Of a stretch of DNA of 55,256 nt, positions 23,648 through 49,324 are shown piece after piece (the stretch's first letter is position 1; every line of letters starts with the position of its first letter). The position numbers were made by a program, and so were the translations under genes. Source of the stretch: an uncultured Clostridia bacterium (lineage in GTDB: Bacteria > Bacillota > Clostridia > Christensenellales > Aristaeellaceae); assembly GCA_944362695.1 (NCBI GenBank), contig CALVTQ010000142.1:1-55256 (forward strand), given 5' to 3'. The notes beneath the pieces were generated by a model. That model saw only the letters and a list, made by a program, of their open reading frames with translations, ran no database searches and was not told where the DNA came from.

Positions 23648-24559
23648 ATGTATCAGGAGCAATACAGCCGGTACGTGAGCATGGTTGAGGAAGCGCTGGA
23701 AAGCCTTCTGCCGCAGACTGCGGACGCATGCCCGGCGAAGGGGCACGCGATTCCGGCGTACCTGTGCGAGACGATGCGTTACAGCCTGCTGGCGGGCGGC
23801 AAGCGCGTGAGGCCCGTGCTGCTGCTGGCGGCGTGCGATATGCTCGGCGGCGACATGGAGCAGGCGAAGACGGCGGCGGGCGCGCTGGAGATGATCCACA
23901 CGTATTCGCTGATTCACGACGATCTGCCGGGCATGGACGACGACGATTACCGCCGGGGCAGGCTCACCAACCACAAGGTTTACGGCGTGGGCCACGCGAT
24001 TCTGGCGGGCGACGGCCTGCTCAACTACGCCTACGAGTGCCTGCTCAAGAACGCGCTCGATCATCCGCAGAACATGGAGGGCCTGGTGCGCGCGGCGAGC
24101 GTGATTGCGGGGCGTGCGGGCGTGGGCGGCATGGTCGCGGGCCAGAGCCTCGACCTGCTCAGCGAGCACACGGAGCCGGATGCGGATCGCCTTTCCTACA
24201 TCCACACGCACAAGACGGCGGATCTTTTGACCGCGCCGCTTCTGGCCGCCGGCCACATTGCGGGCGCGACGAAGGCGGAATTCGAGGCGCTGGAAGCGTT
24301 CGGCATGAGTCTGGGCATCGCGTTCCAGATCGACGACGACCTGCTGGACGTGGAGGGCGACGCGGCGCAGCTGGGCAAGCAGACGGGCATGGACGCGCAG
24401 CGCGGCAAGATGACGTGGCCGTCGCTCGTTGGCGTGGAGCGCTCGCGCGAAAAGAGCGCGCAGCTTTGGACGCAGGCGGAGGAGGCGCTCGGCGTCTTCG
24501 GCGAGAAGGCGTGGTTCCTGCGCGCGTTCGCTGAGGGCCTTCGCGGCAGAAAGAAATAA
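23648..24559 (+). CDS. ispA: Polyprenyl (farnesyl) diphosphate synthase
   Basis: 303 residues. Condenses isopentenyl diphosphate with allylic diphosphates. First aspartate-rich motif 'HDDLPGMDDDD' (residues 90-100) with a two-residue insertion typical of bacterial FPP synthases, 'GGKRVRP' substrate lysine/arginine region, and second motif 'FQIDDDLLD' near residue 230. Together with dxs 2.6 kb downstream it frames the OLE RNA region. GAGTGAAAGACG before the ATG. Confidence 0.93.
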   Translation: MYQEQYSRYVSMVEEALESLLPQTADACPAKGHAIPAYLCETMRYSLLAGGKRVRPVLLLAACDMLGGDMEQAKTAAGALEMIHTYSLIHDDLPGMDDDDYRRGRLTNHKVYGVGHAILAGDGLLNYAYECLLKNALDHPQNMEGLVRAASVIAGRAGVGGMVAGQSLDLLSEHTEPDADRLSYIHTHKTADLLTAPLLAAGHIAGATKAEFEALEAFGMSLGIAFQIDDDLLDVEGDAAQLGKQTGMDAQRGKMTWPSLVGVERSREKSAQLWTQAEEALGVFGEKAWFLRAFAEGLRGRKK

Positions 24560-24598
24560 GGCGCACAGGGGCAAAAGGTATTCTTGGAGGGACATCCT

Positions 24599-25045
24599 TT
24601 GAACATTTTCATTGAGATCATCAGCAACCGGGTGATACAGGCTGCGGCCATCGCATGGGCGATCGCACAGGCACTCAAGGTGATTCTGACGCTCGCGGTC
24701 AGCAAGCGGTTTGACAGCTCGCGCGTGCTCGGCTCCGGCGGCATGCCAAGCTCCCATTCGGCGATGGCCTGCGCGATGGTGATGACGATCGGATACACGG
24801 ACGGCTTCAGCTCGCCGATCTTTGCGCTCGCGTTCTGCTTTGCATGCGTGGTGATGTATGACGCGGCGGGCGTGCGCCGCTCCACCGGCAAAAATGCGGC
24901 TGTGCTCAACCACATTCTGGACGGCCTGTCCGGCAATGGATATGTGTTTGACGAGGAGAGGCTCAAGGAGCTGGTCGGCCATACGCCGCTTCAGGTCATG
25001 GCGGGCGCGCTGCTGGGCATTCTGGTCGGCACGCTGATTGCATAA
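24599..25045 (+). CDS. Divergent PAP2-family (DUF212/YuiD-like) membrane protein
   Basis: 148 residues, about four membrane helices. 'GSGGMPSSHSAMACAM' matches the phosphate-contacting S-S-H-S region, and 'VVMYDAAGVRRSTGKNA' the R-x-x-x-G-K-x-A motif of the family. Members may dephosphorylate prenyl or lipid phosphates, which would suit a neighbour of ispA; no member-specific activity can be read here. The TTG at 24599 has GGAGGG 7 bases upstream and is preferred to an in-frame TTG at 24584. Confidence 0.83.
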   Translation: MNIFIEIISNRVIQAAAIAWAIAQALKVILTLAVSKRFDSSRVLGSGGMPSSHSAMACAMVMTIGYTDGFSSPIFALAFCFACVVMYDAAGVRRSTGKNAAVLNHILDGLSGNGYVFDEERLKELVGHTPLQVMAGALLGILVGTLIA

Positions 25046-25081: not shown

Positions 25082-25110
25082 TTGCGTAAAGATTGGGAAT
25101 ATGCTATAAT
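25082..25110 (+). promoter_or_regulatory. Sigma-A promoter of the OLE RNA
   Basis: -35 TTGCGT (25082-25087), 17-bp spacer, perfect -10 TATAAT (25105-25110). Predicted transcript start about 25117, one base before the 5' arm of the long-range closing helix. Confidence 0.8.
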
Positions 25111-25116
25111 GCGCAT

Positions 25117-25719
25117 TAGGTGGTGCAGTATTCTAGTCAGCACAGTTCTTTCTGAAGACGGGGCTAAAAATCCGTTAAAGGGCATATCGATGAAGTTTCT
25201 GGCGGTGGCTGCTGACGCCCAGTCGGGGGTCTCCGCTGGAAGTAAGAATTATGGGCGCCCGCCAATGGCATGGCGGTGTCCGACCCATTTTTCGTGGAGG
25301 CATGGCGAGCAATCGTCATGAAAACCTGCATGGTGGTACAAAAGCTGCCTGCAGTGTAGCCTGCCTTGAGTGGTTGTGGTGGATCATGGAACAACGCACG
25401 GTGACCAAAGGCTCACGGAAACCGCGGCGATCGCCATGTGAAACCAGGACTGCAAAAGAGGCTAGGAGGGAACCGAGGCTGCCGAGGAAAGCTCCTAGAC
25501 TGTCCCTGTGGATATGGCAGAGATTACAGTGTGGACTCAGTGGTAATTCGGTCGTGCGTACGGAAACGGCGTGACGTTCGTTTTCAAGGGAAACCGCTCC
25601 TATGGCGACAGGGAGTAACGGACGGGGAAATCCTACCGAACCTATGCCGCAAGGTTTATTTGCCGTATCACCACCTTTATGAAAAGAATCAGCCCACGTC
25701 GTCGAGCGTGGGCTTTTTT
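25117..25719 (+). ncRNA. ole: OLE RNA (ornate, large, extremophilic RNA)
   Basis: About 600 nt without a credible reading frame, bounded by a strong promoter and an intrinsic terminator. The ends pair: AGGTGGTG (25118-25125) with CACCACCT (25669-25676). Internal helices by eye include ATGGG/CCCAT (25251-25255 with 25284-25288) enclosing CGCCA/TGGCG (25260-25264 with 25271-25275); CATGGCGA/TCGTCATG (25301-25308 with 25313-25320) capped by a GCAA tetraloop; and CTAGGAG/CTCCTAG (25462-25468 with 25492-25498). OLE RNAs are about 600 nt, lie in the isoprenoid/folate/recombination cluster between ispA and dxs, and directly precede oapA; all three hold here. OLE forms a membrane-associated RNP with OapA and other Oap proteins and has been tied to ethanol, cold and metal stress. 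I could not align it to the consensus. Confidence 0.88.
25691..25719 (+). terminator. Intrinsic terminator of the OLE RNA
   Basis: AGCCCACG (25691-25698) pairs with CGTGGGCT (25707-25714), followed by a six-T run to 25719. It stands only 15 bases before the oapA start codon. Confidence 0.9.
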
Positions 25720-25734
25720 AAGGCACGGAGTTGA

Positions 25735-26307
25735 ATGAATTTGACGAAAAAAGAAAAGGCGAAACAACAGCAGCAGCGCTGGGTTTTGACCGTGGTGTGC
25801 CTGTCCTTCGGCCTTTCCGTCATTATGTCCCTGCTGACCAGCCTGTTTGTGGAATCGGCGGGGCTGTTTGTGGCGCTGATGTCGCTGATCGTGCTGGTCA
25901 TGATCGGCATCATCACCGATGTCGTCGGCACGGCAGTGACCTCCGCGGTCGAGCAGCCGTTCATCGCGATGGCGAGCAAGCGCATACGCGGCGCGAAGCA
26001 GGCGCTGCGGCTGGTGCGCATGGCCGAGCGCGTGTCGAGCCTGCTCAACGACGTCGTGGGCGACATCGTGGGCATCATATCCGGTTCGGCGGGCTCCGTC
26101 ATCGCGCTGTACCTGGTGTCGCTGGGCGCGCCGAGCGCAATTGCCTCGATGCTCATCACGGCGTTCACGTCGGCGTTCATGATCGGCGGCAAGGCATACG
26201 GCAAGGGACTGGCCATCGCCAACAGCGAGAAGATCGTGCTGTACGTGGGCAGCATCATGGCGCTTTTTGAAAGAAAGGGTAAGCCGAAAAAGAAAAAGAA
26301 ATCGTGA
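25735..26307 (+). CDS. oapA: OLE RNA-associated membrane protein OapA
   Basis: 190 residues. Four predicted membrane helices in two pairs (near 17-38, 43-63, 112-132, 135-155) with basic segments between and a strongly basic C-terminus 'KGKPKKKKKS'. 'ITDVVGTAVTSAVEQP' after helix 2 and 'NDVVGDIVGIISGSAGSV' before helix 3 are near-repeats, hinting at internal duplication. The size (about 20 kDa), topology, basic tail and place directly after OLE RNA and before dxs match OapA, which binds OLE RNA and brings it to the membrane. ATG 25735 follows GGAG by 4 bases. With a terminator just upstream, expression probably depends on read-through. Confidence 0.9.
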   Translation: MNLTKKEKAKQQQQRWVLTVVCLSFGLSVIMSLLTSLFVESAGLFVALMSLIVLVMIGIITDVVGTAVTSAVEQPFIAMASKRIRGAKQALRLVRMAERVSSLLNDVVGDIVGIISGSAGSVIALYLVSLGAPSAIASMLITAFTSAFMIGGKAYGKGLAIANSEKIVLYVGSIMALFERKGKPKKKKKS

Positions 26308-26319
26308 GGAGGCACTTGA

Positions 26320-28218
26320 ATGAAGATATTGCACGAAATTCATGGGCCTGATGATGTGAAGAAGCTGAGCGCGGAGGAATGTGCCGCGCTGGCGAGCGAA
26401 ATTCGGCAGACCATTATCGATACGGTGTCGCGGCAGGGCGGCCATCTGGCGAGCAATCTGGGCGACGTGGAGCTGACCATCGCGCTGCACAGGGCGTTTG
26501 ACAGCCCGCGCGACAAGATCATATTCGACGTCGGCCATCAGGTGTACGCGCACAAGCTGCTCACCGGCAGACAGGAACAGTTCGGCACGCTGCGCTCGTA
26601 TCACGGCATGAGCGGGTTCCCCTGCCGCGCGGAGAGCGAGCACGACTGGTTTGACACGGGCCACTCGTCCACGGCGATCTCAATGGCGCTGGGCATAGCG
26701 CGGGCGCGGGATTTGCAGGGCGAAAACTACAACGTGGTGGCGGTCGTGGGCGACGGCGCGCTGACCGGCGGCATGTGCTATGAGGCGATGAATGACGCGG
26801 GCAACGGCAAAAACCGCCTGATCGTCGTGCTCAACGACAACGAGATGTCGATCTCCAAGAACGTGGGCGCGCTTTCTAACTATTTCAAGCATCTGCGCGC
26901 AAGCGCTTCCTGGTACGACAGCAAGAAAAAAATCCGCATGAGCCTCGAGCGTATACCGGGCGTGGGCAAGCCTGTCGCGCGGGTCGTCGAATCGGCGAAG
27001 AATCTGGTGAAATGGATCGTATCGGACGACGGCGCGCTGTTTGAGTCGCTTGGCTTTCGCTATCTCGGCCCGTTCAACGGACATAATATCGAGGAAATGA
27101 CGCGCGTCTTTGAGGACGCGAAAAAGGTGGACGACATGCCGCTGCTCATCCACGTGGTGACGCAGAAGGGCCACGGCTACGACCTGGCCGAGCGGCAGCC
27201 GGAGAAATTCCACGGCGTGGCGCCGTTCCGCGTGGAAAACGGTATGAAGCGCAATCTGAGCGGCAAGGAAAGCGCCGCGCAGGTTGCGGGCAAGACGCTC
27301 GCGGATATGGCCGCCGAGGACGAGCACGTCGTGGCGATCACGGCGGCGATGACGAGCGGCACGGGTTTGACCGATTTTGCGGCGTATTACCCGACGCGGT
27401 TCTTCGACGTGGGCATCGCCGAGCAGCATGCCGTGAGCATGGCGGCGGGCCTGGCGCGCATGGGCCTGCGCCCGTATTTCGCGGTGTACGCGACGTTTTT
27501 ACAGCGCGCCTACGACCAGATCGTGCACGATGTGTGCTTGCAGAATCTGCCGGTGCGCATCCTGTCGGATCACGTGGGCCTCGTCGGCGACGACGGCAAG
27601 ACGCATCACGGCGTGTTGAGCGTGCCGATGCTCTTGAGCATGCCGAATCTCACGCTGCTCACCCCGCGCGACACGCAGGCGATTCGTGAGGCCGTGCGCG
27701 CGTCGCTTGACGTCGAGGGGCCGTGCATCATCCAATACTCCAAGGACGGCATCGAGCGATACGCCGAAAGCGTGGATGGAAAGCCGTTTGCCGTGGGCAA
27801 GTGGGACGTGCTGCGCGAAGGCGGCGACGTGGCGATTCTGACGTGGGGACGCATGGGCCACACGGCGCTTGAGGCGGCGAAGCTGCTCGAAAAGCAGGGT
27901 GTGCAGGCGGGCGTCATCGATTGCTGCTCGCTGCGCCCGATGGATATGGACTGCCTGCGCGGGCTGTTCGCGCGCGGGACGAAGCTCGTGACGCTGGAGG
28001 AAGGCGAGCTGATCGGCGGCTTCGGATCGGAGATCGCCAGACTGTGCGTGCAGGAAGGCGCGAGGGAGCCGGTTGCGGTTCTTGGCCTGCCCAACAGATT
28101 CATCACGCACGGCGGCGTGGATCAGCTGCTGGAGGAATGTGGCCTGACGCCGGAGAATGTCGCGGCGAAAATCAAGGCTGCGCTTGAAAAAGGCGGCAGG
28201 CAGACCGATACGAAATAA
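26320..28218 (+). CDS. dxs: 1-deoxy-D-xylulose-5-phosphate synthase
   Basis: 632 residues. A thiamine-diphosphate enzyme joining pyruvate and glyceraldehyde 3-phosphate at the first step of the MEP isoprenoid route. 'GGHLASNLGDVELTIALH', 'DVGHQVYAHKLLTGR', 'VVGDGALTGGMCYEAMNDAGN' (ThDP/Mg site), 'DVGIAEQHAVSMAAGLA' (catalytic Glu) and 'DHVGLVGDDGKTHHG' are all intact; the C-terminal transketolase domain is complete. GAGGAGG-type site before the ATG; 12 bases after oapA. Confidence 0.96.
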   Translation: MKILHEIHGPDDVKKLSAEECAALASEIRQTIIDTVSRQGGHLASNLGDVELTIALHRAFDSPRDKIIFDVGHQVYAHKLLTGRQEQFGTLRSYHGMSGFPCRAESEHDWFDTGHSSTAISMALGIARARDLQGENYNVVAVVGDGALTGGMCYEAMNDAGNGKNRLIVVLNDNEMSISKNVGALSNYFKHLRASASWYDSKKKIRMSLERIPGVGKPVARVVESAKNLVKWIVSDDGALFESLGFRYLGPFNGHNIEEMTRVFEDAKKVDDMPLLIHVVTQKGHGYDLAERQPEKFHGVAPFRVENGMKRNLSGKESAAQVAGKTLADMAAEDEHVVAITAAMTSGTGLTDFAAYYPTRFFDVGIAEQHAVSMAAGLARMGLRPYFAVYATFLQRAYDQIVHDVCLQNLPVRILSDHVGLVGDDGKTHHGVLSVPMLLSMPNLTLLTPRDTQAIREAVRASLDVEGPCIIQYSKDGIERYAESVDGKPFAVGKWDVLREGGDVAILTWGRMGHTALEAAKLLEKQGVQAGVIDCCSLRPMDMDCLRGLFARGTKLVTLEEGELIGGFGSEIARLCVQEGAREPVAVLGLPNRFITHGGVDQLLEECGLTPENVAAKIKAALEKGGRQTDTK

Positions 28219-45600: not shown

Positions 45601-45606
45601 ATCGGC

Positions 45607-45853
45607 TAAAGGCGAAGAATGAGACAACGCCCGGCAAAGGCAGCCTTGCAGAGAGCGCGCGGCAGCTGGAATGTGCGCAGGTTTGCTTCGGGAAATTCAC
45701 TCAGGAGCTGCTCCGCTGACATGTAGGCGGGGACGGACGACCCGTTATCGAATCAGAGGTCTTACTGCGCGTCTTTTCGTGCGCACGAGACGAAAATTGG
45801 GTGGTACCACGAGGAATTCAGCCTCGTCCCTTTTGCGGGGACGCGGCTTTTTT
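45607..45853 (+). promoter_or_regulatory. T-box leader controlling pheST (phenylalanine-responsive)
   Basis: The T-box consensus TGGGTGGTACCACG is at 45798-45811. It is followed by a terminator whose stem pairs GCCTCGTCCC (45821-45830) with GGGGAC...GGC, ending in a T run at about 45848-45853. Upstream, AGAGAG and GCGGCAGCTGG resemble the Stem I distal module. By gene context the specifier should be UUC (Phe): a TTC at 45696-45698 followed by A, and another at 45687-45689, are candidates. Uncharged tRNA-Phe would stabilise the antiterminator and raise pheST expression. Confidence 0.93.
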
Positions 45854-45877: not shown

Positions 45878-46912
45878 ATGGACATGCAGGAACAACTTCG
45901 CAAAATCCAGGAGGACGCGAAGCAGCAGATCGAGAAGATCACCGACAAGGCAGGACTTGACGCACTGCGCCTGAAGATGCTGGGCAAGAAGGGCGATCTG
46001 ACGCTGCTGCTGCGCTCGATGGGCCAGGTGCCCGCCGAGGAGCGCCCGAAGGTCGGCCAGATGATCAACGTCGTGCGCGAGCACCTGACGGCGCAGATGG
46101 ACGAGCTGGACGCGAAGATCAAGAAGATGGAACAGGAAAAGAAGCTTGCGCGCGAGTCGATTGACGTGACCGAGCCGCGCGAGCACACGGCGATAGGCTG
46201 CGTGCATCCCGTATCGCTGGTGCAGGATCAGCTGTGCAAGGTCTTCACCGGCATGGGCTTTGACGTGGTCGAGGGCCCGGAGGTCGAGCTCGACCTGTTC
46301 AACTTCGAGCTGCTGAATCTGCCCAAGAACCATCCGGCGCGCGACGCGCAGGACACCTTCTACATCGAGGACAACATCGTGCTGCGCACGCACACCTCGC
46401 CTGTTCAGGCCAGAACGATGCTCTCGCGCAAGCCGCCGATCCGCATTGTCTGCCCGGGCCGCGTGTATCGCGCGGACGAGGTTGACGCGACACATTCCCC
46501 GGTCTTCCATCAGATGGAGGGCCTTGTCATCGACGAGGACGTGACGATGGCCGACCTCAAGGGCACGCTGGACGCGTTCGCCAAGAACCTGTATGGCGAC
46601 GACGTGACCACGCGCTTCCGCCCGTCGTTCTTCCCGTTCACCGAGCCGTCCGCCGAGGTCGACCTGACCTGCGTGAACTGCCACGGCAAGGGCTGCCGCG
46701 TGTGCAAGGGCACGGGCTGGATCGAGGTGCTCGGCGCGGGCATGGTCAACCCGAAGGTGCTGGATATGTGCGGCATCGACAGCAAGAAATACAGCGGATT
46801 TGCGTTCGGCGTGGGCCTTGAGCGCATCGCGATGCTGCGCTACGGCATCACCGACCTGCGCCTGTTCTACGAGGGAGACGTCCGTTTCCTGTCCCAGTTC
46901 CGCGATGACTAA
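45878..46912 (+). CDS. pheS: Phenylalanyl-tRNA synthetase alpha subunit
   Basis: 344 residues, class II synthetase core. N-terminal coiled coil (about 1-85) contacts tRNA. 'HPVSLVQDQLCKVFTGMGFDVVEGPEVE' (motif 1), 'LRTHTSPVQARTM' and 'GRVYRADEVDATHSPVFHQMEGLVID' (motif 2), 'FRPSFFPFTEPSAEVD' and 'GFAFGVGLERIAMLRYGI' (motif 3). A Cys cluster 'CVNCHGKGCRVCKG' lies near residue 266. Normal length. Confidence 0.96.
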   Translation: MDMQEQLRKIQEDAKQQIEKITDKAGLDALRLKMLGKKGDLTLLLRSMGQVPAEERPKVGQMINVVREHLTAQMDELDAKIKKMEQEKKLARESIDVTEPREHTAIGCVHPVSLVQDQLCKVFTGMGFDVVEGPEVELDLFNFELLNLPKNHPARDAQDTFYIEDNIVLRTHTSPVQARTMLSRKPPIRIVCPGRVYRADEVDATHSPVFHQMEGLVIDEDVTMADLKGTLDAFAKNLYGDDVTTRFRPSFFPFTEPSAEVDLTCVNCHGKGCRVCKGTGWIEVLGAGMVNPKVLDMCGIDSKKYSGFAFGVGLERIAMLRYGITDLRLFYEGDVRFLSQFRDD

Positions 46913-46930: not shown

Positions 46931-49324
46931 ATGAAAGTACCGATGCAATGGATGAAGCAGTACACGGAGATTCCGGTCTCCGCGGAGGCTTTTCAGGATG
47001 CGATGATCATGCACGGAACGGGCGTGGAGGGCATTGAGGACCAGAACGACGCCGTGCAGAACGTGGTCGTGGGCAAGATTCTCACCGTCCGCAAGCATGA
47101 GAATTCCGATCACATGGTGATCTGCGATGTGGATGTCGGCGAGGCCGAGACGGTACAGATCGTTACCGGTGCGCCGAACGTGCACGAGGGCGATCTCGTC
47201 CCCGTGGCGAAGGTCGGCGCGAAGCTGCCCGGCGGCATCACCATCAAAAAGGGCAAGCTGCGCGGCGTGGATTCCTGCGGCATGTGCTGCTCCGGTCCGG
47301 AGCTTGGCGTGCCGGAGTATCTGTATCCGTCCGTGGGCGACAAGGGTCTGCTGATCTTCCACGAGGACTACAAGCCCGGCACCGACGTGCGCAGCATTCT
47401 CGGCGTGGACGACCAGATCGTCGATTTCGAGATTCTGGCCAATCGCCCGGACTGCCTGAGCGTCTGGGGCGTGGCGCGCGAGGCTGCGGCGACGCTCGAT
47501 AAGCCGTTCAACAAGCCGGAGATCAAGGTGGAGACCGTGCCGGGCAAAATGGAGGACTTTGTCCACATCGACGTGCAGGATACCGACCTCTGCCCGCGTT
47601 ACTGCGCCCGCATTGTCAAGAACGTGAAGATCGGTCCGTCCCCGATGTGGATGCGCAAGGCGCTGCATGCGGCGGGCGTGCGCGCGATTAACAACATCGT
47701 CGACATCACCAACTACGTGATGCTGGAGACCGGTCACCCGATGCATGCCTTTGATCTTGCCAAGGTCAAGGACAGCCACATCATCGTGCGCCGCGCCTAC
47801 GAGGGCGAGAAGATTGTCACGCTCGACGGCAAGGAGCGCGCGCTGACGCCCGACATGCTGATGATCTGCGACCAGAACAACGCGACCGGCATTGCGGGCG
47901 TCATGGGCGGCGAGGAATCCGAGATCACCGACGAGACCACGACGGTCATGTTCGAAATTGCGAGCTTTGACCGCACGAGCATCCGCCTGACGACCCGCGC
48001 GCTGGGCCTGCGCACCGAGGCGTCCGGCCGTTACGAGCGCGGCGTCTGCGCGGCGACCTGCCGTGAGGCTGCGGATCGCGCCTGCCAGCTGGTCAACATG
48101 CTGGGCGCGGGCGAGGTCATCGAGGACGTCTACGACTGCTATCCGAACCCGAAGCCCGAGGTCGTCGTCGAGGCGAGCGTCGCGGGCATTAACCGCCGCA
48201 TCGGCATGCAGATTCCGGGCGAGGAGATGGTTTCCATCCTCAAGCGCCTGCACATGGATGCCAAGCTCGATGGCGACAAGCTGACCGTCGTCGCGCCGAA
48301 CTACCGCGAGGACATCGAGAACGAGGCGGACATCTCCGAGGAGGTGCTGCGCATCTATGGCTATGAGCACATCGACTCGACGCTGCTGCGCGGCCAGACA
48401 GCCCCCGGCACCCGCAATGCGCACATGGAGCTGACCGATAAGGTGCAGCGCATCCTGACCGGCAAGGGCCTCTACGAGATCCGCAATTTCTCGTTCGTCA
48501 GCCCGAAGATCATCGAGAAGCTTGGCCTGGACGAAGGCGACAATCGCCTCAATCTGCTCAAGGTCACCAACCCGCTGGGCGAGGACACGAGCGTGATGCG
48601 CTCGACGCTGGTTCCGTCCGTGCTGGGCACCGTGGCGCTCAACCAGAACCGCAACAACGAGACGGCCATGCTCTACGAGATCGCGCCTGTGTTTGACAAC
48701 GTGGGCCGCGAGGAGGGCAAGCTGCCGCACGAGATGCCCATGCTGTGCATCGGCGCGTACGGCGCGAAGGTCGACTTCTACCTGATCCGCGATATCGTGA
48801 TGGATATGCTCGCGCGCTTCGGCGTGAAGTGCGACGTCGTGCGCGGCGCGCAGCCGTATCATCATCCGGGCCGCGCGGCCGAGCTGATGGTGAACGGCGA
48901 GTGCATCGGCAACGTCGCCGAGGTGCATCCCGACGTCATGGCGGCCTTCGAGCTGAGCAAGCGCACGATCATCGCCGAGGTCAACCTCGAGAAGCTCGCC
49001 GCCTTGCGTACCAAGATGACCGACGTGCGCAGCCTGCCCAAGTTCCCGGCCGTCACGCGCGATATTGCGCTGGTGATGGACGAGAGCGTCATGGTCGGCG
49101 ATGTGCTGTCCTGCATCAGGAAGGCGGGCGGCGCGATGCTCGAGAGCGCGCAGATGTTCGACATCTATCGCGGCGCGCAGCTGCTGACGGGCAAGAAGTC
49201 CGTGGCGTTCTCGCTGGTGTTCCGCAACGCCGAGCGCACGCTGTCCGATGACGACGTGAACCCGGTGGTTAAGAAGATCCTCGAGGCGTGCGAGAAGAAT
49301 TGCGGCGCGGCGCTGCGTCTGTAA
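46931..49324 (+). CDS. pheT: Phenylalanyl-tRNA synthetase beta subunit
   Basis: 797 residues. tRNA-binding OB fold near the N-terminus ('VVGKILTVRKHENSDHMVICDVDVG', about 40-150), B3/B4 editing domain ('HPMHAFDLAKVKDSHIIVRRA', 'GIAGVMGGEESEI'), B5 domain, class II-like core and C-terminal ferredoxin-like anticodon-binding fold ('FPAVTRDIALVMDESVMVGDV'). Complete and standard. 18 bases after pheS; same T-box control. Confidence 0.96.
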   Translation: MKVPMQWMKQYTEIPVSAEAFQDAMIMHGTGVEGIEDQNDAVQNVVVGKILTVRKHENSDHMVICDVDVGEAETVQIVTGAPNVHEGDLVPVAKVGAKLPGGITIKKGKLRGVDSCGMCCSGPELGVPEYLYPSVGDKGLLIFHEDYKPGTDVRSILGVDDQIVDFEILANRPDCLSVWGVAREAAATLDKPFNKPEIKVETVPGKMEDFVHIDVQDTDLCPRYCARIVKNVKIGPSPMWMRKALHAAGVRAINNIVDITNYVMLETGHPMHAFDLAKVKDSHIIVRRAYEGEKIVTLDGKERALTPDMLMICDQNNATGIAGVMGGEESEITDETTTVMFEIASFDRTSIRLTTRALGLRTEASGRYERGVCAATCREAADRACQLVNMLGAGEVIEDVYDCYPNPKPEVVVEASVAGINRRIGMQIPGEEMVSILKRLHMDAKLDGDKLTVVAPNYREDIENEADISEEVLRIYGYEHIDSTLLRGQTAPGTRNAHMELTDKVQRILTGKGLYEIRNFSFVSPKIIEKLGLDEGDNRLNLLKVTNPLGEDTSVMRSTLVPSVLGTVALNQNRNNETAMLYEIAPVFDNVGREEGKLPHEMPMLCIGAYGAKVDFYLIRDIVMDMLARFGVKCDVVRGAQPYHHPGRAAELMVNGECIGNVAEVHPDVMAAFELSKRTIIAEVNLEKLAALRTKMTDVRSLPKFPAVTRDIALVMDESVMVGDVLSCIRKAGGAMLESAQMFDIYRGAQLLTGKKSVAFSLVFRNAERTLSDDDVNPVVKKILEACEKNCGAALRL

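Follow-up and report, generated by a model that had tools for sequence, protein, structure and literature searches.

The window, as we call the whole stretch of 55,256 nucleotides analyzed here, comes from an uncultured Clostridia bacterium and carries, as read from open reading frames (ORFs) and Pfam matches, the gene order xseA, xseB, ispA, a PAP2-like gene (DUF212), OLE, oapA, dxs and an FtsJ/S4 gene (Table 1). The Pfam matches agree with an initial annotation of this DNA, which had placed ispA/PAP2 upstream and dxs downstream of the interval of interest. Of the structured bacterial RNAs that still lack an assigned biochemical role, OLE is one of the largest, and OapA is its most constant partner. 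In the window, oapA starts directly downstream of OLE, 44 nt past the end of the model match. The tandem order is not universal: a contig with ole and a separate one with oapA were found in one genus (g20 of family f13; genomes G047, G098 and G152). Elsewhere in the window is a T-box leader (45606-45834, 105.9 bits), directly followed by two ORFs (45878-46912 and 46931-49324) that we take to be pheS-like and pheT-like.

Table 1. Features of the ispA-OLE-oapA-dxs locus, in coordinates of the window.
Feature	Position	Strand	Evidence or remark
ispA (polyprenyl synthetase)	23648-24559	+	PF00348, E 4.3e-58
Divergent PAP2 protein (DUF212)	24584-25045	+	PF02681, E 2e-48
Promoter-like site: TTGCGT (25082-25087), 17 nt, TATAAT (25105-25110)	25082-25110	+	start would be near 25118
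OLE RNA (Rfam RF01071), full length	25104-25690	+	cmscan, 462.3 bits; covariation
5' arm of closing helix P1 (partner 25669-25676)	25118-25125	+	8 perfect pairs; six counted, kept in 15/15
AUCGAUGAAG, within the reported OapC k-turn region (J4a/5)	25186-25195	+	invariant in 15/15; placed by a probable map correspondence
Probable P7, reduced to a GCAA-capped hairpin of 8 bp where the consensus has a longer stem before P8	25301-25320	+	
L9.3 loop GGCU, reported dimer kissing loop	25410-25413	+	self-complementary with G-U
P12.2/P13 with GGCGAC, reported OapB-binding region	25575-25624	+	helices 19 and 20; stem names presumptive
Intrinsic terminator in the ole-oapA interval, followed by a T run	25691-25714	+	terminator scan
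oapA, 190 aa, CNNM-like membrane protein	25735-26307	+	genus co-occurrence, DxxxD, predicted fold
Proposed OLE-docking segment, OapA 75-83 (PFIAMASKR)	25957-25983	+	signature in 163/172 vs 0/33
DxxxD, OapA residues 106-110 (DVVGD)	26050-26064	+	both D in 172/172 OLE-linked rows (by construction in the named rows, which were fetched with the pattern DVxGDI) and 33/33 OLE-less rows
dxs	26320-28218	+	PF13292, E 1.1e-114

Searching the whole window with cmscan, we found one OLE match and no other. At 462.3 bits (E 1.4e-132) against a gathering score of 50, and covering positions 1 to 616 of the 616 in the RF01071 model, this match confirms that the interval encodes OLE RNA, as the initial annotation had proposed. 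We rejected a coding reading of the interval because the ORFs inside it (76 to 107 aa) are short and overlapping and the RF01071 match is decisive. The same ORFs might suggest that these 600 nt hold an operon leader or a decayed coding sequence in place of OLE, but that reading is refuted by the cmscan match over the full model, together with the covariation described below, and its probability is negligible. One OLE copy was found in the window's genome (G000), an 83.3% complete metagenome-assembled genome in 174 contigs. The annotation described the RNA as sequence divergent, but at 462 bits it is not strongly so, and its rarity was overstated, since published surveys count thousands of OLE sequences: 2,822 matches in Bacillota (PMC11332333) and, in a cryo-EM paper, 8,585 nonredundant sequences (PMC12286853). 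By itself, the OLE RNA of the window is one more member of this published class.

The promoter claimed for the RNA stood in part. Two hexamers are present at the 17-nt spacing described, but TTGCGT matches at three of six positions, and a strict promoter scan called no promoter at the site; the presence of TATAAT at the same place in 24 of 30 loci favors a promoter. In 13 genus mates TTGACA lies 7 nt before TATAAT, too close for a -35 element, and this hexamer is absent from the window. At the other end, the intrinsic terminator that had been described was recovered as a stem followed by a T run. The scan found four terminator-like sites in 900 bases on both strands, where 0.7 would be expected, and similar terminator stems occur in most of the genus mates.

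To follow the fold through the lineage, we built an alignment of 15 sequences (the window, its 13 genus mates and G035, from another genus of the family) and mapped the window's Rfam structure onto it with P7 corrected and P1 added. Two-sided changes occurred in 41 of the 154 modeled pairs; shuffled alignments gave 17.4 +/- 2.7, and none of 500 reached 41. Overall, 90.0% of alignment cells were paired, compared with 35-50% when the partners were slid by 1-3 columns, a contrast that favors the window because the structure was taken from it. In the window itself, 131 of 147 modeled pairs are standard. The least well paired helices were 14 (45.5% of cells), 12 (64.9%), 4 (78.5%), 18 (81.7%) and 8 (84.4%). 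We concluded that the OLE fold is upheld in the window's lineage by compensatory changes. The initial annotation had been prepared to give up its reading for lack of a covariance-model hit or of compensatory changes in relatives; what we found was a decisive RF01071 match and two-sided changes of pairs.

Individual elements of the fold bear this out. The two ends of the RNA, which had been predicted to pair, do so through eight perfect pairs; the six of these that we counted as P1 are kept in all 15 aligned sequences, the window included, and one of them shows a two-sided change. The helix with a GNRA tetraloop noted earlier is also real. It is an 8-bp hairpin with a GCAA loop, and in the cmscan alignment model positions ~204-240 are largely absent from the window; from the published order of stems, we take this hairpin to be P7. 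All eight of its pairs are present in 9 of the 13 genus mates and seven of them in the other 4, the hairpin is not kept in G035, and helix 7, its main part, has four pairs with two-sided changes. The region of J4a/5 has a reported role as the OapC k-turn (PMC9723947), and that of P12.2/P13 in OapB binding is from the same source; helices 19 and 20, which probably correspond to the latter, have 96.7 and 98.3% of their cells paired. The L9.3 loop, which the cryo-EM paper describes as a self-kissing dimer contact (PMC12286853), reads GGCU or AGCU in every genus mate but G007 (12 of 13), which has neither, and GGCC in G035 of the same family.

Searches of the 190-aa protein encoded downstream against Pfam (E 0.001) and NCBIfam (family cut-offs) assigned it to no family. 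An NCBIfam match to GspG (E 0.0047, 16.9 bits against a cut-off of 88.85) was rejected, and a PDB sequence search gave nothing useful. The initial annotation had taken this protein to be OapA, and the identification is supported by its co-occurrence with OLE in 15 of 15 OLE-bearing members of the genus, by its DxxxD motif and by a CNNM-like fold, so that OapA homology of the neighbor, whose absence would have spoken against the reading, is present. Invariant columns in an alignment with 13 relatives include W16, D62, D106, G109, D110, G117, K153 and K157. An AlphaFold2 model made from an alignment of the window protein with 54 relatives (54 of 80 named loci) had a mean pLDDT of 91.1, with helices at 5-70, 73-81, 87-95, 97-129, 134-162 and 164-180. 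In Foldseek, its six best PDB matches were all CNNM proteins (probability 0.97-1.00), with weak E values (7.5e-3 to 0.51, none below 0.001) and TM scores of 0.46-0.54 by query length. The predicted fold is CNNM-like, in agreement with the published comparison to CNNM proteins (PMC11332333).

We also looked for the other known protein partners. L7Ae-family proteins were present in 26 of 29 genus members, none of them in the incomplete G000, by a family search that does not tell OapC from a paralogue. We found infA in 16 of 20 genomes searched (that of G000 lies at a contig end), and 13 of these 16 loci have a KOW gene directly upstream of infA, recognized by eye; the one KOW protein compared, from G027, matches the PDB entry for OapB (7k9b) with E 1.1e-8. 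Relatives of the window have candidates for these parts; G000 itself is incomplete, with gaps.

OLE is found in 15 of the 29 genus members (G000 counted). OapA is found in all 15 of these and in none of the 14 others, bar one weak match in G019 (E 2.5e-4) that falls on its CNNM protein. In 27 OLE-less relatives, including 14 from the genus, a laxer OLE search gave none at E up to 10, in a run that scored some but not all candidates and in which no control matched. In eight OLE-less members with a readable locus, the ORF that stops just upstream of dxs is PAP2-like (GGMPSSHS), and in a ninth it is ispA; these OLE-less loci of the genus are empty sites, not assembly gaps. On a Dxs tree these nine members fall in about two groups, with G003 and G019 among OLE-bearing species (95/91); the placement of G012 is weak. 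Strong CNNM-domain proteins (E < 1e-30) occur in 12 of the 14 OLE-less and 5 of the 15 OLE-bearing members, G000 being among the five (Fisher p 0.008, with kinship ignored and the OLE-less members making up only about two groups). These counts echo at close range the published anticorrelation of OLE with MpfA (PMC11332333). The genus of the window is thus a close-range case of clean ole-oapA absence in which CNNM proteins are commoner where the pair is absent.

Across the order, we found a different pattern. It has been stated that oapA occurs only with ole (PMC9723947) and that one may never be present without the other (PMC11332333). Among 297 genomes of the order, a strong OapA (E < 1e-40) was present in 169 and OLE in 135; 132 genomes had both, 3 had OLE without a strong OapA, and 37 had a strong OapA without OLE. 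We counted 33 of these 37 as OLE-less, with G194 outside the count and three others set aside, G136 and G140 after their segment (see below) was seen. In G324, OLE is cut by a contig end and its tail matches at E 1.6e-44; in G140 it is likewise cut, leaving a weak 32-base tail (E 0.004) not seen by cmscan; and G136, 84% complete and with no OLE found, belongs to the genus with separate ole and oapA contigs. The 33 comprise 17 genomes of family f5 (six genera), 2 of f7, 2 of f24 and 12 of f28. With lax filters, cmscan of 35 loci (G136 and G140 included) gave no OLE at E up to 5 in 33 loci or up to 1 in two. A sequence-profile search of the loci at E up to 10 gave no OLE except in G140 and the control L146. 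A whole-genome OLE search showed nothing above noise in 31 of the 33, in runs where three controls matched, and likewise nothing above noise in G039 and G041, in a run where no control matched; apart from G072 and G326, each of the 33 had all its OLE candidates scored. A search of the open literature, with the OapA papers of 2011 and 2018 outside its scope, brought up no title dealing with an OapA that lacks OLE.

We built an OapA tree from 116 rows, leaving out 12 OLE-bearing rows of the window's genus. In it the f5 proteins make up a single clade (99/79), to which f7 is joined (85/70). The two f24 proteins, of G172 and G230, stand apart, and that of G230 groups with those of OLE-bearing G107 and G270 (100/86). 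The twelve f28 rows form one clade with a second OapA of G087 (94/83). In this last genome, which is small and bears OLE (L150; L302:14113-14811), the OLE-linked OapA has AMASKK, and another OapA, encoded elsewhere, lacks the segment with DVVGD kept; because this second copy falls with all 12 f28 rows, we rejected a simple loss of OLE with retention of OapA in f28 in favor of a paralogue. OapA is intact, with no OLE found, in 33 genomes and in about four events, one of which is a gene copy and not a loss. In 9 of the 12 f28 loci (L131-L135, L137, L138, L140 and L143), the OLE-free oapA lies beside an element resembling an L20 leader, at 27-49 bits and below the family cut-off of 58.7. G289, 75% complete, has OLE and OapA matches on contigs C15 and C22, reflecting either two copies or mixed strains.

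Comparison of the OLE-linked and OLE-less proteins pointed to one short stretch. The segment pattern P-F-x-[AS]-M-[AS]-[AS]-[KR]-[KR] at residues 75-83 is decayed in OLE-less OapA. Our OLE-linked set of 172 rows, at least six of them repeats, combined 92 from OLE-bearing genomes of the order with 80 named loci, in 79 of which OLE was seen, the remaining one being cut by its contig. A first motif, M[AS][AS][KRN][KRHN], was found in 89 of the 92 order rows but in 50 of 79 named OLE loci, and was widened after H was seen at 82 and T at 81. The resulting signature, [AS]M[ASC][AST][KRHN][KRN] at 78-83, fixed post hoc after the columns had been read, occurs in 163 of 172 OLE-linked rows (nine lack it) and in 0 of 33 OLE-less rows. 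G136, G140 and G324 all carry it, making 1 of 34 if G136 is counted as OLE-less; its presence in G324 and G140, where OLE is cut by a contig end, counts in favor of the link between segment and RNA. Singly, M79 is present in 168 of 172 OLE-linked but 2 of 33 OLE-less rows, and P75 in 158 of 172 but 2 of 33. When 92 OLE-linked and 33 OLE-less proteins were compared, the mean column entropy of the two 8-residue blocks spanning 72-87 rose, in the first from 1.70 to 2.82 bits and in the second from 1.22 to 2.90, whereas among the other 19 blocks it did not rise in 16 and rose by at most 0.22 in three. Outside the segment, single columns differ as well, among them 36 (E/S to Q), 178 (F, 92% to 29%) and 115. 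Decay is only partial in some lineages, namely, IMSNKK in G172, ALSAKK in G230 and ALAARK in f7. Averaged over the OLE-linked proteins, the net charge of residues 74-90 is +3.1, against +1.7 in the OLE-less ones. The segment follows TM2 and, should the lysine-rich ends point inward, would lie on the cytoplasmic face, where according to a review a conserved basic cluster has been speculated to bind OLE (PMC12265935). Our comparison would narrow this published cluster to one short helix, the rest of OapA being kept where no OLE was found. We conclude that segment 75-83 is a likely OLE-docking site and, judging from the conservation of the remainder, that OapA probably works without OLE.

Two other readings of the OLE-less proteins have to be weighed. 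The OLE-less OapA proteins might act with a diverged RNA encoded elsewhere, unseen by the Rfam model, with which the segment has coevolved. Variant OLE RNAs do exist (PMC11332333), ole and oapA are on separate contigs in genus g20 of f13, and G245 (E 7.6) and G313 (E 0.3) have subthreshold matches. At the oapA locus itself, however, there is no room for such an RNA in the ispA-oapA gaps of 33-177 nt in the 11 loci read at both ends; the cmscan of the 35 loci and the whole-genome searches of the 33 also stand against it, and the OLE-bearing relatives within f28 score 345-420 bits, so we consider a hidden RNA quite improbable.

Alternatively, the segment could have another job, such as a dimer contact or the binding of a protein partner, and have been lost with OLE only indirectly. 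That OapA carries extra duties would fit the few MpfA proteins of OLE-bearing species, as published (PMC11332333) and as seen in our CNNM counts for the genus. Against this, the G230 protein, though grouped with OLE-bearing G107 and G270, is already without M79, and the drop in charge over 74-90 is what would be expected for an RNA contact. We regard this explanation as unlikely and favor docking of OLE by the segment.

Taken together, these results suggest the following account, which we hold with good confidence as a whole. An OLE RNA of ~570-600 nt would be transcribed, probably from its own promoter, and ended by the intrinsic terminator; oapA would be expressed through leakage past this terminator or as part of a longer operon transcript. 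The RNA would fold into its two-domain form and probably dimerize through L9.3, and OapA, a CNNM-like protein of four helices, would keep it at the membrane; the membrane localization, OapA binding, dimer and stress phenotypes of OLE are taken from the published papers. OapA may be divisible into two parts. One, a polar core (D62, D106, D110, K153 and K157), would do the membrane work for which the RNA is not needed, most likely the handling of divalent metals, and the other, a short helix after TM2 (73-81, then K82 and R83; PFIAMASKR) on the cytoplasmic face would dock OLE. The ribonucleoprotein could then tune OapA and tie it to stress signals.

On balance, we lean toward regarding OapA as a free-standing CNNM-like device and OLE as a detachable module that plugs into one cytoplasmic helix, with about four lineages having dropped the RNA or evolved an RNA-free copy, in which the plug decayed and the core stayed. 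An RNA-free OapA goes against the published statement that oapA is found only where ole is and, if real, would provide a natural knockout series that separates the role of the protein from that of the RNA. If OapA works without OLE, its core activity could be assayed in an RNA-free background, and the nine-residue segment would be the first place to seek the RNA contact.

OapA shares its fold with the CNNM domain (PF01595) of MpfA, CorB and CorC, but its 190 aa leave no room for CBS and CorC domains and it belongs to no Pfam family at E 0.001, for which reason we rejected the window protein as an MpfA/CNNM exporter (CNNM plus CBS plus CorC); OapA has also been described as having four helices against three in CNNM (PMC11332333). 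Like published OapA, the window protein is a predicted helical membrane protein encoded beside ole, with DxxxD and a basic TM2-TM3 segment, and it differs in its lysine-rich C-terminal tail, which several genus mates also have. The RNA resembles OLE of, for example, Halalkalibacterium halodurans in its match to the full model, its closing helix, the reported OapC and OapB regions, its tandem arrangement with oapA and the ispA-dxs neighborhood. It departs from RF01071 in having only the 8-bp hairpin at P7 and in an L9.3 loop of GGCU instead of one of the published palindromes (GGCC, GAUC or AGCU). A shortened P7 is shared with OLE variant 1 of the TANB77 clade (PMC11332333), but that variant often lacks the P12.2/P13 region for OapB (PMC11332333), which the OLE RNA of the window keeps.
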